From: Marinicella sp.
Lineage (GTDB): Bacteria > Pseudomonadota > Gammaproteobacteria > Xanthomonadales > Marinicellaceae
Direction of reading: 5' to 3'
Assembly: GCA_028284365.1 (NCBI GenBank)
Contig: JANQRW010000022.1
Span: forward strand, 62,001-126,000
DNA length: 64,000 nt
The position numbers and the translations under genes were made by a program. Under the pieces are notes generated by a model. It did no database searches, was not told where the DNA came from, and worked only from the letters and a program-made list of their open reading frames with translations. Shown one piece after another: positions 51,364-56,682 of this stretch. Position 1 is the first letter of the stretch. Every line of letters starts with the position of its first letter.

Positions 51364-51431
51364 AAAAAAAAAGCCCTTCTTGGTGAGAAGGGCTTTTTTT
51401 TGGATCAACCAATTGTTTGCCGAACTCACCA
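51364..51431 (-). terminator. ilv attenuator: terminator plus antiterminator segment
   Basis: On the minus strand AAGCCCTTCT (51395-51386) and AGAAGGGCTT (51380-51371) form a perfect 10-bp stem with loop CACCA, then seven T. The leader segment TGGTGAG at 51431-51425, spanning the last codon and stop of the leader peptide, is fully complementary to CTCACCA (51387-51381), the loop plus part of the left arm. The two pairings exclude each other. A ribosome stalled at Ile/Val codons would favour the second, so this is a classic transcription attenuator. Confidence 0.88.
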
Positions 51432-51503
51432 CACACGTGGGCCGATAATCACGAGAATGACTGCGACGACGTTAATGAGTTGAATGTTGGCAAATATGTT
51501 CAT
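51426..51503 (-). CDS. ilvL: ilv operon leader peptide (25 residues)
   Basis: A short frame from ATG (51503) to TGA (51426) encodes 25 residues starting MNIFANIQLI. The run NVVAVILVII at positions 11-20 means 13 of the 25 residues are Ile, Val or Leu. Codons used in the run include GTC, CTC and ATC. The intrinsic terminator of ilvE starts about 30 bases beyond the stop codon. This is the arrangement of E. coli ilvL, where stalling on Ile/Val/Leu codons senses charged tRNA. No strong ribosome site is seen before the ATG. It should count as a regulatory frame rather than a functional protein. Confidence 0.85.
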   Translation of the reverse strand: MNIFANIQLINVVAVILVIIGPRVW

Positions 51504-51583: not shown

Positions 51584-51744
51584 CAATTTTTTTTTATTTT
51601 TTTAAGCTCACACTTTTATACAAAAAAATTATTTCTTTTTTAAATTATTTTGTGTTAGCTTAGAAAAATGCGTTCAATTTTTTCGCTGAAAATTGGGTTA
51701 AAAATGACCTGACTTTTTAATAATAAACCAAGAGGAATACCGTT

Positions 51745-51855
51745 ATGAAACGGCCAGATTTTACACAACAACAAACAACACAAAGGCAGCAAAACAACAC
51801 CTCCAACAACACCCACATCATTCTTCTCGACCTCCTCCTTTTGATTAGAATTTAA
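51745..51855 (+). CDS. leuL: leu operon leader peptide (36 residues)
   Basis: A frame from ATG (51745) to TAA (51855), with AGAGGA eight bases ahead of the start, encodes 36 residues. The first two thirds are polar (MKRPDFTQQQTTQRQQ, then NNTSNNTH). The end is IILLDLLLLIRI, six Leu codons (CTT, CTC, CTC, CTC, CTT, TTG) within seven positions, just before the stop. It lies 147 bases ahead of leuA. A Leu-codon run at the end of a short leader in front of leuA fits leucine-sensing attenuation like E. coli leuL, but the polar first part and length differ. No other function is evident. Confidence 0.75.
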   Translation: MKRPDFTQQQTTQRQQNNTSNNTHIILLDLLLLIRI

Positions 51856-51995
51856 TTTTCGAATCAAACACTTAAGTCCGTTCTGAAAATCAGAACACAT
51901 TCAAATTAAAAAATAACACTGACGTGATTTCATTCGAAGATTGAATCTTTGAACACAGGTGAACTGTACCTGCATTTTACGTCATATGAAGAGGT
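51840..51995 (+). promoter_or_regulatory. leu leader RNA structures between leuL and leuA
   Basis: Three inverted repeats follow the Leu codons: TTTGATT/AATCAAA (51840-51868), a perfect GTTCTGA/TCAGAAC with 3-nt loop (51880-51896), and TTCGAAGA/TCTTTGAA with one G-U pair (51933-51953). None is followed by a T-run. The leader segment ACCTCCTC (51830-51837, inside the Leu codons) can pair at 7 of 8 positions with GAAGAGGT (51988-51995), the leuA ribosome site. Control by translation or Rho instead of an intrinsic terminator is possible. Confidence 0.45.
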
Positions 51996-52002
51996 TAAAA
52001 CC

Positions 52003-53613
52003 ATGAAACACATTAAGATTTTTGACACCACGTTAAGAGACGGCCAACAATGCCCAGGCGCTGGCATGAGTTACAGTAAAAACATTGAGTATGCCCAATT
52101 AGCCGCCAAAATAAACATTGATGTTTTAGAAGCAGGTTTCCCCAGCGCCAGTGCTGAAGACTACAAAATCGTTAATCACATTGCACAAATGTATGCCCAA
52201 CAATCCCACAGCCCAAAAGTTGCTGCTTTGAGTCAATTACGCGAAGAACAGGTCCAAAAAACCACACAGGCCTTGGCACCGCTGATTCCTTCAAAACGTG
52301 CCATTTTACATGTTTATTTACCAGTTGCTCCTGAGCTGATGGAAGCTTCTCTGGGCAAGTACGCCGATGACAAAGAACAAATCTTAAAAGATACCAAAAC
52401 AATGATAGAAAAGGCTGTGGCAGCTGGCTTAGAAGTTGAATTCAGTCCTGAAGCATACTCACAAATGGGTGATAATTTTGATTTCACCACTGAATTAATC
52501 AGTACAGCCATTGCAGCTGGTGCATCTACGATTAATTGTCCAGATACCATTGGACGTGCTTGTTACTTACAAGGTGAAGATTACTTTGTAAACCACATGA
52601 ATCAACATGCGGCCATCATGAAACAACGGTTTCCTGAGCGGGACATCACTTGGTCAGTCCATTGTCACAATGATTTTGGCTTGGCTTTGGATAACAGCAT
52701 GCGTGCGGTGTTTGAGGGTCCTGCAAGCCAGGTGGAAGGTTGTTTCAATGGCATCGGTGAACGCGCAGGCAATGTCGCTCTGGAACAATGCATCATGTAC
52801 ATCAAGTCATTCAGTAGCGAAAACAACCCTGCAGTAACTCAATGTCAAAGTCGACACATTCGCCAAGTTTCGGATTTTGTGAGCAAACACATGTTAAATC
52901 GCCAACCACACTGGCCGATCAGCGGTGATAACGCAGCTAAACATTCCTCAGGTGGCCATACCAATGCCATTTTGAAGAATGCGGAAGTTTACCAGCCCTT
53001 CCCACCCAGCTCAGTGGGCCAAAACATTTCTTTTGTATTCGGCCCGCTAAGCGGCAGCAATCATGCCCAATCCATCATTCAAAAACATGGTTATGCTTGT
53101 GAAGCTCATGAACGCCAAGAAATCATGCAATACATCAAGGAATACCACAAAAACCGCCGTAAAGGCTTAACTGATGACGAGTTCATGGAGGCTTATTTCA
53201 ATTACAGAAAACCGATTGACGTGGCCAAGATCGTCTTTGAGATCAAACAGAATCAAAAACATTTTTCTATTGTTGCCAAAGTGTTTGGTGAAACTGAACA
53301 ATTTGACATCGCTTGTCAACACGATGCCACTGCAACCACTGCTTTACATCGATACCTGCGCGAGCGATTTGGCCAATTTCACATCCAATCTTACCGCAGT
53401 GAATCAAAAGAACCAGGACGTCATGCTGAGGCCCATGCCACCATCAGCATTGCTGTTGGCGATGTCTTCTACCAAGGCAAGGCACACCATCATGACATCG
53501 AAACGGCAGCTTTGATGGCCTTGATAGACGCTTTCAATCAGCATTTAATCGCAGCACATTACAGCCATAAAAAAGAGCAAGAACCGGCTTTAAAGGTAGG
53601 CATGAGGGATTAA
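52003..53613 (+). CDS. leuA: 2-isopropylmalate synthase
   Basis: This first enzyme of leucine synthesis condenses 2-ketoisovalerate with acetyl-CoA. It is about 536 residues. The HMGL-like barrel has DTTLRDGQQCPGAGMS, ETINPDT-like TINCPDTIGRA, the metal site HCHNDFGLALDNS and GCFNGIGERAGNVALEQ. A linker and the C-terminal allosteric LeuA dimer domain follow (KVFGETEQFDIACQHDATAT). The ATG at 52003 has GAGG at a good distance; an in-frame TTG at 51949 was rejected. The internal RNA leader with leuL precedes it. Confidence 0.95.
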   Translation: MKHIKIFDTTLRDGQQCPGAGMSYSKNIEYAQLAAKINIDVLEAGFPSASAEDYKIVNHIAQMYAQQSHSPKVAALSQLREEQVQKTTQALAPLIPSKRAILHVYLPVAPELMEASLGKYADDKEQILKDTKTMIEKAVAAGLEVEFSPEAYSQMGDNFDFTTELISTAIAAGASTINCPDTIGRACYLQGEDYFVNHMNQHAAIMKQRFPERDITWSVHCHNDFGLALDNSMRAVFEGPASQVEGCFNGIGERAGNVALEQCIMYIKSFSSENNPAVTQCQSRHIRQVSDFVSKHMLNRQPHWPISGDNAAKHSSGGHTNAILKNAEVYQPFPPSSVGQNISFVFGPLSGSNHAQSIIQKHGYACEAHERQEIMQYIKEYHKNRRKGLTDDEFMEAYFNYRKPIDVAKIVFEIKQNQKHFSIVAKVFGETEQFDIACQHDATATTALHRYLRERFGQFHIQSYRSESKEPGRHAEAHATISIAVGDVFYQGKAHHHDIETAALMALIDAFNQHLIAAHYSHKKEQEPALKVGMRD

Positions 53614-53615
53614 AT

Positions 53616-54992
53616 ATGTCACAAAATATTGTAGAAAAGATCTGGCACCAGCACCGGGTACATCATCAAGACGGTTTTCCTGATGTACTGGGTATTGATT
53701 TTGCCCTATTACATGAAGTTACTTCTGCTCAAGCTTTCGACATGATTGAACAACGCAACCTCAGCATCCATGATCCCACTAAATTTCTGGCCACCATTGA
53801 TCACAGCATACCAACCCGTATAAACCGCCATGAAATTCATGATAAGACGGCCAAAGCTCAGATCGAATTACTGCGTAAAAATTGTGCCAAACATGGCATC
53901 CCGATTTGTGATTTAGACAGCAACCACCAAGGCATTGTCCATGTCGTTGGGCCCGAACTGGGCATCACACAACCTGGCATGACCTTGGTTTGTGGCGACT
54001 CTCATACCGCCACTCATGGGGCTTTTGGGGCTTTGGCTTTTGGTATTGGTACTTCAACATTGGCCCATGTATTTGCCACTGGTGCGGTGTTGATGAACCA
54101 ACCTAGGGTGATGCGAGTTAACTTCAAAGGCGAATTACCTGAAGGTACCTATGCCAAAGATATGATCATGCACCTGATCGCTGAAATTGGCATAGGTGGA
54201 GCCACCGGACATGTGATTGAATATACCGGAGCCGCAGTTCATGCCTTGTCCATGGAGCAGCGCATGACATTGTGTAACATGAGCATTGAATGTGGTGCGA
54301 TTGCTGGTTTGGTTGCCCCCGATCAAACCACTTTCAACTACATCAAGAACCGTCTTTATGCACCTGATGGTGAGCAGTTTTCACAAGCCCTCGTTCATTG
54401 GCAAAGTTTATGCAGTGACGATGGCTGCCACTATGACCAAGTGATTGAATTAAATATCAGTAAATTGAAACCCATGATCAGTTGGGGCACCAACCCACAG
54501 CAGGCGATACAAAGTCACCAAGTGATTCCTGATGGCTCCAGCGCAGCTTTGGATTATGTTAAATTAAACGCCAATCAAAAGCTGATAGGTACAGCTATTC
54601 AATGGGCTTTTGTGGGTTCTTGTACCAATGGTCGAATTGAGGACTTACGCATTGTCGCTGAGATTTTGCGCAATAAAAAAATTGCAACTGATGTCACCAT
54701 GTATGTGGTACCAGGTTCTGAACAAGTGATGATACAAGCCCAAAAAGAAGGTCTGGATGAAGTGGTTACAGCCGCTGGTGCTGAATTTCGCATGCCAGGT
54801 TGTTCTATGTGCCTCGGTATGAATGATGACAAAGTCCCTGCCGGCGAACGATGTATCAGTACCACCAATCGTAACTTTATTGGTCGTCAAGGTACTGGCA
54901 GTATCACTCATTTGGCCTCTCCTGCCACAGTGGCCTATAGTGCCTTAGCCGGCTTTATTTGTACCCAATTCATGACTGAGGAGGCCTCATAA
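53616..54992 (+). CDS. leuC: 3-isopropylmalate dehydratase large subunit
   Basis: This aconitase-family subunit holds the [4Fe-4S] cluster and isomerises 2- to 3-isopropylmalate with LeuD. It is 458 residues. Cluster cysteines are in VGSCTNGRIEDLR and PGCSMCLGMNDDKVPAGE; other marks are VCGDSHTATHGAFGALAFGIG and IDHSIPTRINRHE near the start. It begins 2 bases after leuA and its stop shares a base with the leuD start. The order A-C-D-B differs from the A-B-C-D order of E. coli. Confidence 0.96.
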   Translation: MSQNIVEKIWHQHRVHHQDGFPDVLGIDFALLHEVTSAQAFDMIEQRNLSIHDPTKFLATIDHSIPTRINRHEIHDKTAKAQIELLRKNCAKHGIPICDLDSNHQGIVHVVGPELGITQPGMTLVCGDSHTATHGAFGALAFGIGTSTLAHVFATGAVLMNQPRVMRVNFKGELPEGTYAKDMIMHLIAEIGIGGATGHVIEYTGAAVHALSMEQRMTLCNMSIECGAIAGLVAPDQTTFNYIKNRLYAPDGEQFSQALVHWQSLCSDDGCHYDQVIELNISKLKPMISWGTNPQQAIQSHQVIPDGSSAALDYVKLNANQKLIGTAIQWAFVGSCTNGRIEDLRIVAEILRNKKIATDVTMYVVPGSEQVMIQAQKEGLDEVVTAAGAEFRMPGCSMCLGMNDDKVPAGERCISTTNRNFIGRQGTGSITHLASPATVAYSALAGFICTQFMTEEAS

Positions 54993-55606
54993 TGTCAATT
55001 CAAAAACAAGGTAAAATAACCATCCAGGGGGGGTGTGTGCCAATGATGATCGACGACATTGATACAGACATCATTATCCCAGCACAACACTTGACCCAAA
55101 CTTCAAAATCAGGATACGGACAACATGCCTTTGCGCGGTTGAAACAAGGCGATGCTGATTTCGTGTTGAACCAAAAGCGTTACCAAAATGCCAAAGTGCT
55201 GCTGGCTGGTGATAATTTTGGCTGTGGCTCCTCTCGCGAACATGCTGTTTGGGCCATTCAGGAACTCGGTTTTGAGGCCATCATTGCGTCATCTTTTGCC
55301 GATATTTTCAGCAACAATGCCAGAAAAAATGGCCTGGTGCTCATAGCGTTGGCACCGGATAATTGTCAACGAATCGCCAAACAAGCCACACAAGAAAATC
55401 TACATCTAGCCATTGATTTAAAGCAAGCGACAGTCACAGCCACAAACTTTAAATATGATTTCAATATCAACCCATTCTTTCAACACTGCATAACCCACGG
55501 TTATGATGAAATTGATTACCTGCTGAGTCACATTGAAAACATCAAAGCACACAAAACCGCTATTATGAATCAATCTTTGTTCATTCAACCCGGACATGCG
55601 ACATGA
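54992..55606 (+). CDS. leuD: 3-isopropylmalate dehydratase small subunit
   Basis: This swivel-domain partner of LeuC is 204 residues. Signatures are DIDTDIIIPAQHL near the start and the substrate loop AGDNFGCGSSREHAVWAIQE, followed by ASSFADIFSNNARKNGL. GAGG stands before the ATG, which overlaps the leuC stop. Its own end overlaps leuB by 4 bases, so all four leu genes form one tight unit. Confidence 0.95.
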   Translation: MSIQKQGKITIQGGCVPMMIDDIDTDIIIPAQHLTQTSKSGYGQHAFARLKQGDADFVLNQKRYQNAKVLLAGDNFGCGSSREHAVWAIQELGFEAIIASSFADIFSNNARKNGLVLIALAPDNCQRIAKQATQENLHLAIDLKQATVTATNFKYDFNINPFFQHCITHGYDEIDYLLSHIENIKAHKTAIMNQSLFIQPGHAT

Positions 55607-56682
55607 ATACGCCATCAAATAAACCACACATTGCGATCCTGGCCGGGGACGGTATCGGCCCTGAGGTGATGCAACAAGCGTTGCGGGTCTTAGAAAAAGT
55701 TGCTCCAGATGTGAGCTATACCCACGGTTTAATTGGTGGCGCCGCTTATGCTAAATACCAACAGCATTTTCCAAATGCCACTAAAGAGCTGATTGATCAA
55801 GCCGATGCGGTGTTGTTTGGTTCAGTTGGTGGCCCAATTCAAGCTGCTGATTCTCCCCAATGGAAAAACTGTGAGGTCAATTCAATCCTGGCTTTGCGTA
55901 ACCACCTTAACTTAAGTGTCAATGTCAGGCCGGCTAAGTTTTATTCTGCTTTGGCTGATATTTCACCATTGAAGAATCATTTGTTTGATGCCTGTGATGA
56001 AATTTTGATCTATCGTGAATTACTTGGAGACATCTATTTTGGAGAAAAACGCACCTTTGAGGTTAACGGACAAATGGTGGCTGAAGACACCGCTACTTAT
56101 ACTGATGACCAAATAAAAGCGATTGCACAGCAAGCGTTTACATGTGCTGCCAATAGATCTGGCAAACTCACTTCTGTTGATAAAGCCAATGTTTTGGACA
56201 CTTCTAAATTATGGCGGCAGGTTTTTGATGAAATGGCCAAAGACTTTCCCCAAGTTGAGTTGAGTCATATGTTGGTTGATAACTGTACCATGCAATTAAT
56301 CCTCAATCCCGCACAATTTGATGTCATTGCAACTGCCAATCTATTCGGTGACATCCTATCAGATGCCGCCAGTGCCTTACCTGGATCGCTGGGCATGATG
56401 CCATCGGCCAGTTTCAATGATGCTGGTTTTGGCTTGTATGAACCTTCAGGTGGCTCAGCGCCTGACATTGCTGGTAAGGACATCGCTAATCCAATGGCAC
56501 AATTGTTGTCACTGGCGATGTTACTGCGTCATTCTCTGAACAGGCACCCAGAAGCACTGGCCATCGAACAAGCCATTGAACAAGTTTTAAATTCAGGGCA
56601 TCGAACTGCTGACATTGGTCATAACGCTTCTGACACGACAGGAACCGTTGCATTTACTGATCAGGTTATACAACAGCTTTGA
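55603..56682 (+). CDS. leuB: 3-isopropylmalate dehydrogenase
   Basis: This NAD-dependent enzyme oxidises and decarboxylates 3-isopropylmalate to 2-ketoisocaproate. It is 359 residues. Motifs are AILAGDGIGPEVMQQALRVL, SVGGP, LNLSVNVRPAKFY, YRELLGDIYFGEKR, ANLFGDILSDAASALPGSLG and YEPSGGSAPDIAGKD. It ends the leuACDB operon. No clear intrinsic terminator follows; repeat copy R2 begins 18 bases after the stop. Confidence 0.96.
   Translation: MNTPSNKPHIAILAGDGIGPEVMQQALRVLEKVAPDVSYTHGLIGGAAYAKYQQHFPNATKELIDQADAVLFGSVGGPIQAADSPQWKNCEVNSILALRNHLNLSVNVRPAKFYSALADISPLKNHLFDACDEILIYRELLGDIYFGEKRTFEVNGQMVAEDTATYTDDQIKAIAQQAFTCAANRSGKLTSVDKANVLDTSKLWRQVFDEMAKDFPQVELSHMLVDNCTMQLILNPAQFDVIATANLFGDILSDAASALPGSLGMMPSASFNDAGFGLYEPSGGSAPDIAGKDIANPMAQLLSLAMLLRHSLNRHPEALAIEQAIEQVLNSGHRTADIGHNASDTTGTVAFTDQVIQQL

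Follow-up and report, generated by a model that had tools for sequence, protein, structure and literature searches.

The leuACDB operon of Marinicella sp. is preceded by a short open reading frame that ends in a run of leucine codons. It lies in the window, which is the whole 64,000-nucleotide stretch of DNA analysed here and part of a 3.1-Mb genome. The initial annotation of this DNA had described a 36-residue frame with a good ribosome site, 147 bases before leuA, and the frame, its AGAGGA site and the 147 nt to the leuA ATG at 52003 were all recovered as described. The leucine codons CTC and CTT are rare (4.2% and 5.3%, respectively, of leucine codons in 38 ORFs of the window) and occupy five of the six leucine positions of this leader. 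The genes of the operon are separated by a 2-nt gap or overlap, so that leuC, leuD and leuB could gain from translation of leuA through coupling. A second leader peptide, rich in isoleucine, leucine and valine, precedes a divergent ilvE-ilvD operon on the other strand (Table 1).

Table 1. Positions in the window of the genes, leader elements and predicted RNA segments
Feature	Position	Strand	Remarks
ilv terminator, GCCCTTCT-loop-AGAAGGGC followed by nine T (RNA sense)	51364-51393	minus	8 stem pairs
ilv leader peptide MNIFANIQLINVVAVILVIIGPRVW, ILV-rich	51426-51503	minus	upstream of divergent ilvE-ilvD operon
Leader ribosome site AGAGGA	51731-51736	plus	8 nt 5' of leader ATG; read from sequence
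Leucine leader peptide ORF	51745-51855	plus	36 codons; peptide MKRPDFTQQQTTQRQQNNTSNNTHIILLDLLLLIRI; ends in IILLDLLLLIRI and stop
Leu-codon segment ACCTCCTC, arm of base stem	51830-51837	plus	ribosome-free MFE; family covariation test
Leu run CTC CTC CTT TTG, proposed sensing codons	51832-51843	plus	
Region 1, TTGATTAGAA, codons L-I-R and part of I	51841-51850	plus	predicted pairing with region 2 around leader stop; MFE
Region 2, TTCGAATCAA	51858-51867	plus	starts 2 nt after leader stop; TTCGAA invariant in 7/7 close relatives
Hairpin GTTCTGA..TCAGAAC, between regions 2 and 3	51880-51896	plus	six-pair stem; 100% of cells paired; one double-change pair
Outer helix, 5' arm TGACGT, before leuA ribosome site	51920-51925	plus	MFE
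Region 3, ATTCGAAG	51932-51939	plus	predicted partner of region 2 with ribosome stalled at Leu run; RNAalifold
Region 4, TCTTTGAA, alternative partner of region 3	51946-51953	plus	MFE
Hairpin CAGGT-GAACTGT-ACCTG with weak T tail CATTTTACGT	51956-51972	plus	sole terminator-scan match between leader and leuA
Outer helix, 3' arm ACGTCA	51979-51984	plus	
leuA ribosome site GAAGAGGT	51988-51995	plus	
leuA, 2-isopropylmalate synthase, 536 aa	52003-53613	plus	best NCBIfam match 295 bits, below the model's curated cut-off
leuC, leuD, leuB	53616-56682	plus	2-nt gap or overlaps between genes

Conservation of the leucine leader

The family survey covered 33 Marinicellaceae genomes, of which 20 carry a leuA of this type. 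The upstream DNA was readable in 19 of these loci (L001 to L018 and L020), L019 being left out because its contig ends inside leuA. Seven of the loci (L001 to L007, with L001 representing the window's species) are termed the close relatives below, and nine loci from a sister genus (L008 to L013 and L015 to L017) are termed g3.

A comparison of the leucine codons across related species, proposed in the initial annotation as a check, bore out the leader: a frame with a Leu run was found before leuA in all 19 loci, the close relatives included. These leaders are 33 to 52 residues long, contain 4 to 9 leucines among the last 12 residues and stop 81 to 158 nt before leuA. Their N-terminal parts differ widely, and the C-terminal Leu run is the only part that they share. 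The endings are LLLLIRI (L001, L002, L004 and L005), LLLLIQL (L003), LLILIRI (L006), LIILIIL (L007), LLILINL (L014 and L018), INLLSL (L020) and LLRLI (all nine g3 loci). In the g3 leaders, an in-frame ATG was seen by eye 9 nt past a -10-like TACTTT, TACCTT or TAATGT, and no Shine-Dalgarno sequence was seen; this arrangement suggests that the mRNA from which the leader peptide is translated there may be almost leaderless.

A lax criterion (at least four leucines in the last 10 residues of an ORF no more than 300 nt upstream) recovered 18 of the 19 family loci, and all 19 at 330 nt. Among the controls, it was satisfied by 3 of 30 other window genes and by none of 10 relatives from the same order whose LeuA is of another type. 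In a sample of 369 genomes of the class, the nearest LeuA proteins not belonging to the family share 48–49% identity (L046 to L049), and inspection of their upstream regions by eye revealed no leader of the family form. Three of these four loci (L047, L048 and L049) nevertheless hold an ORF satisfying the lax criterion, and thus the criterion alone is not specific. None of the three has a family-type ending, and the ORFs of L047 and L048 overlap a longer open frame. In a search of Rfam, the leu leader had no match at the gathering score; at E values up to 1, no leu leader family was among the 14 matches, the stronger of which, all of them weak, fell on the ilv terminator.

Predicted pairing with the leuA ribosome site

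The Leu-codon segment ACCTCCTC can pair with the leuA ribosome site GAAGAGGT at 7 of 8 positions, the same count as reported at the outset. The further expectation that 51830-51837 and 51988-51995 covary among relatives held for the family as a whole but not for every species. In the covariation test, each leader tail was paired with its own leuA ribosome-site window and with those of other clades, with 10 clades set by eye and significance obtained by permutation. Pairing with the own window was stronger (mean -10.42 versus -8.37 for other clades; z -3.3, p 0.001), and the signal was robust to dropping any single clade (p at most 0.005). Among 36 windows scanned, z ranged from -2.0 to -3.9 in the five that cover the ribosome site (starts -30 to -6) and from -2.0 to +2.1 in the other 31; a control window at offset 600 reached -2.0, which equals the weakest ribosome-site window. 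When other segments were compared with the ribosome site in this way, z was -1.0 for the N-terminal part of the leader and -1.9 for the 45 nt that follow its stop. Clear pairings include TTGCTCC:GGAGCAA in L003, CTCCTGCTA:TGGCAGGAG in L006 and CTCTTACG:CGTAAGAG in L013.

The helix between Leu codons and ribosome site was also looked for in L004 and L005, where it is absent. A null model of synonymous codons gave a mean z of -0.5, with 14 of 19 values negative and only L001, L016 and L017 near or below 0.05, and in most species it lends no support to selection of the Leu codons for pairing. The strength of the pairing is mostly what synonymous codons would yield anyway. The ribosome site of L004 and L005, GAGTACAG, shares GTACAG with a hairpin, GGTACAG..CTGTACC, an arm of which might stand in for the Leu codons as the anti-Shine-Dalgarno segment.

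For the nine g3 sequences, RNAalifold picks a stem between the Leu codons and the ribosome site that encloses two hairpins, with a covariation term of about zero. This stem is nearly invariant (96.5% of cells paired, no double changes), and the double changes sit in the two inner hairpins. A structure slid by -1 equalled the true one in its number of double-change cells, but only 48.9% of its cells were paired. The g3 codons CTC TTA CGA CTT are identical in all nine species, whereas in LeuA a single codon was kept in 1 of 22 invariant leucine columns and in 1 of 14 invariant arginine columns, which points to selection on the RNA. RNAalifold gave no convincing structure for L014, L018 and L020. 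An extra g3 helix, joining GACTTA in the leader with a downstream TAAGTC, was noticed by eye only and is not claimed.

In the close relatives, a second set of alternative pairings is predicted. The sequence TTCGAA occurs twice in all seven, 1 to 2 nt past the leader stop and again 62 to 72 nt before leuA (at 51933 in the window), and RNAalifold picks the pairing of the two copies, i.e., of region 2 with region 3. Both cores are invariant, and pair counts for 2:3 therefore give no covariation. Across the seven species, 83.3% of cells are paired between regions 1 and 2, with no double changes, and 81% in the outer helix TGACGT:ACGTCA, in which two pairs show double changes.

The effect of ribosome position was predicted by equilibrium folding with the ribosome footprint masked, in a model free of pseudoknots, proteins and co-transcriptional kinetics. 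With the ribosome at the leader stop, the probability of 2:3 pairing, P(2:3), was 0.00 in all seven close relatives. In L001, it was 0.92, 0.82 and 0.49 with the A site at CTC, CTC and CTT and 0.27 at the Asp codon that precedes them. Of the 17 positions scanned, the remaining 13, TTG (0.01) among them, did not exceed 0.06. In the window's species, 2:3 pairing is thus predicted essentially only with a ribosome at the Leu run. Values for L002 were 0.96, 0.94 and 0.56 at the Leu run and reached no more than 0.17 outside the run and its Asp codon; those for L005 were 0.60 to 0.96 at the run and up to 0.33 elsewhere. In L004, L006 and L007, P(2:3) was high over a broad range, and without masking it already stood at 0.43 in L006 and 0.67 in L007. 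In L003, the 2:3 pairing failed (at most 0.06). Four other footprint sizes left the value at the stop at 0.00 and that of L003 at no more than 0.02. In silico, mutually exclusive 1:2 and 2:3 pairing governed by ribosome position was therefore found in six of the seven close relatives, L003 being the exception.

In all 19 species, folding was also used to estimate how much it costs to open the leuA start. Masking of the Leu codons lowered this predicted cost by more than 0.3 kcal/mol in 17, compared to 4, 1 and 2 species at three window sizes when the N-terminal part of the leader was masked as a control. At three window sizes, the stall state lay below the stop state in 12, 11 and 12 of the 19. 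The stretch between leader and leuA was then replaced by dinucleotide shuffles (24 per species, with up to three Leu codons each); with species treated as independent, the drop on a Leu stall was 2.25 kcal/mol for the native sequences versus 0.22 for the shuffled ones, among which the largest of the 24 means over the family was 0.54. For the seven close relatives, the difference between stop and stall was 3.78 kcal/mol versus 0.11 in shuffles, with a highest shuffle mean among 24 of 0.93. Some species fitted poorly: L007 showed no opening on a stall (-1.1), and L005, L011 and L018 just 0.3 to 0.5. For g3, the predicted opening of the leuA site is about equal with the ribosome at the stop and with it stalled, which implies that g3 would lack closure by a stop-bound ribosome and would depend on its release.

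A candidate translation attenuator and its alternatives

Taken with the comparison among species, these predictions make it probable that the leuACDB leader acts as a leucine-sensing translation attenuator. When leucine is plentiful, the ribosome would reach the leader stop (LLLL-IRI-stop), cover region 2 and depart, after which the leuA start would be closed by the base stem of Leu codons and Shine-Dalgarno sequence together with the domain just upstream that contains 3:4 and TGACGT:ACGTCA. When charged tRNA-Leu is scarce, the ribosome would stall on CTC CTC CTT and mask both the anti-Shine-Dalgarno segment and region 1, leaving region 2 free to pair with region 3, so that the ribosome site of leuA becomes accessible. 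Coupling could then extend translation to leuC, leuD and leuB. Within this scheme, we infer the stalling itself, the effect on leuA protein and the coupling.

It had been suggested that leader translation might open or close leuA translation directly. The comparison and the folding agree with this idea, but the 8-nt pairing named for it would be only part of the switch: in the close relatives, the post-stop TTCGAA and its partner at 51933 form a second, more codon-specific element that is predicted to add 1:2/2:3 logic. A fuller reading, to which we lean with less assurance, is that Marinicellaceae possess an attenuator acting wholly at translation initiation, in which the Leu codons serve as the anti-Shine-Dalgarno of leuA, the close relatives join 1:2/2:3 logic to it with a ribosome-site lock replacing the terminator, g3 represents a second layout and the neighbouring operon keeps the terminator version.

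Among the alternatives, Rho-dependent transcription attenuation fares best, though we consider it unlikely. Leader translation would cover or expose a C-rich Rho loading site, with termination before leuA or early within it. Rho sites are C-rich and G-poor, and so are the leader ORFs of all 19 loci (C/G 1.6 to 3.7; 3.4 in the window); no strong intrinsic terminator was seen, which would suit Rho as well. The stretch between leader and leuA, on the other hand, is just mildly C-rich (C/G 1.0 to 1.9), and a Rho mechanism would require neither the covariation with the ribosome site nor the position-dependent opening of leuA. Because closure of the leuA start would of itself favour Rho action inside the gene, the two processes may act together.

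A textbook intrinsic-terminator mechanism with a weak terminator is less probable still. It would make use of the hairpin at 51956-51972, of its counterparts in relatives and of a U-rich hairpin in part of g3, and the alternative pairings of the close relatives do fit classic 1:2/2:3/3:4 logic. The initial annotation had noted that no stem followed by a T-run lies between the leader and leuA, and this proved correct for the window, where the longest T-run in that interval is 4 and this weak hairpin alone was flagged. T-runs of at least 5 are absent from the interval in 13 of the 19 loci, including all seven close relatives, in none of which the hairpin is followed by a T-run longer than 4. The six loci with such runs all belong to g3 (L008 to L012 and L016). 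In L008 to L012, seven T lie inside a CCT..AGG hairpin; three of these loci (L008, L010 and L012) also have runs of 5, and L010 has another run of 7. The run of 5 in L016 lies near the leader stop. The CCT..AGG hairpin is kept in L013 and L015 to L017 and has no long T-run inside.

A looser scan (a stem of at least 4 pairs and 5 T in the 8 bases after it) returned matches in 12 of 19 loci: hairpins of 6 to 7 pairs at the 51956-51972 position in L001, L002, L004 and L005, 4-pair stems in L003, L007, L009 to L011 and L018, and, in L008 and L012, a hairpin of 8 pairs that contains the T-run. These matches slightly raised the weight given to a weak terminator, which had been rated about as low as the last alternative below, and slightly lowered that of the translation attenuator. 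Against them, the looser scan found nothing in seven loci (L006, L013 to L017 and L020), and the stricter scan found none in L008 or L010. The ilv terminator at 51373-51393, though obvious, went unflagged in the first scan, a miss probably due to the A:T flanks that lengthen its stem, and T-runs were for this reason counted directly too.

The ilv terminator, with its eight stem pairs and nine T, also provides a local example of what a strong one looks like. The ilv leader and terminator stem, with a T-run after the stem, are kept in all seven close relatives, the peptide ending in LVII(G/D)P(R/H)VW, and the region matched no Rfam family at the gathering score. Intrinsic-terminator attenuation is thus in use in these cells for one branched-chain operon, right beside the leu leader.

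Very improbable is a leader without a sensing role, i.e., a small hydrophobic peptide or a uORF whose translation helps leuA through reinitiation or by protecting the mRNA, for although leader genes have been proposed to boost downstream translation in the available text of one paper (PMC4833913), the Leu run is the sole shared part of an otherwise variable peptide, rare CTC and CTT fill most leucine positions of the window's leader and the stop lies at least 81 nt upstream of leuA in every locus.

Comparison with known attenuators

Amino-acid attenuators are textbook examples of control by transcription termination, and a comparative study of proteobacterial attenuators was reportedly made by Vitreschak et al. 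in 2004. Among the features of a classic leu transcription attenuator, the Leu-run leader is present here, and an intrinsic terminator and a match to the Rfam model were not found. The proposal that this locus departs from the textbook enterobacterial leu attenuator is in keeping with these results, as the switch is predicted to act on the leuA start and no strong intrinsic terminator accompanies it. In the transcription attenuator of the gammaproteobacterial leuA operon, for which the available text gives a Shewanella example, a terminator stem ends the switch (PMC2659441). Both have a Leu-rich leader, codons of which form a helix with the sequence that follows, in competition with a second helix; unlike in Shewanella, no strong terminator was seen in Marinicella, and the final element would be directed against the leuA ribosome site.

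A closer likeness exists to the actinobacterial LEU element upstream of leuA. As far as the accessible text describes it, this element comprises a leader with a Leu run and a pairing of the Leu codons with the Shine-Dalgarno box of leuA; its mechanism was left open (Seliverstov et al. 2005, PMC1262725); the authors cite mutants, doubt codon-based sensing and propose a regulatory protein. Both have a Leu-run leader ORF before leuA and a base stem in which the Leu codons pair with the Shine-Dalgarno sequence, and neither shows an obvious terminator. The stem described here has a family z of -3.3 and 96.5% of cells paired in g3, but it is absent from L004 and L005 and mixed under the synonymous null. 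Three differences stand out from what that text reports. First, the LEU element carries a conserved pseudoknot inside the stem, and the folding used here is pseudoknot-free. Second, the host belongs to the Gammaproteobacteria. Third, a 1:2/2:3 switch past the leader stop is predicted in addition for the close relatives, and the g3 stem encloses two hairpins. On this partial comparison, the Marinicellaceae leader is best read as a translation attenuator resembling the LEU element (PMC1262725).

Translation attenuation by pairing between a uORF and a Shine-Dalgarno sequence is a recognised kind of control, with the cysteine genes of M. smegmatis named as a case in the available text of a further paper (PMC13236596). 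As in such systems, stalling in the uORF would break a pairing that hides the downstream ribosome site; unlike the M. smegmatis case, leucine rather than cysteine would be sensed, and in other bacteria. Among the matches listed in searches of open-licence papers, none reported such an attenuator for Marinicella or its family.

If the proposed mechanism is correct, the leader would be a convergent counterpart of the LEU element and would back a codon-sensing function for that disputed element. The same stem of codons and Shine-Dalgarno sequence in a distant group, with signs of sensing at the codon level, bears on how the LEU element works. The leu operon, if controlled at translation, would also form with the adjacent ilv operon, controlled by a terminator, a natural pair for asking why levels of control differ.

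Compared to the NCBIfam models of 2-isopropylmalate synthase, the window's LeuA scores far under the curated cut-offs (at best 295 versus 532 bits), and homologues of at least 57% identity were seen in Marinicellaceae alone among the genomes searched. In 13 of the 33 family genomes, five of them given as at least 98% complete, no match to this leuA was found at an E value of 1e-100, which suggests that these genomes have lost leucine synthesis or employ a different enzyme.
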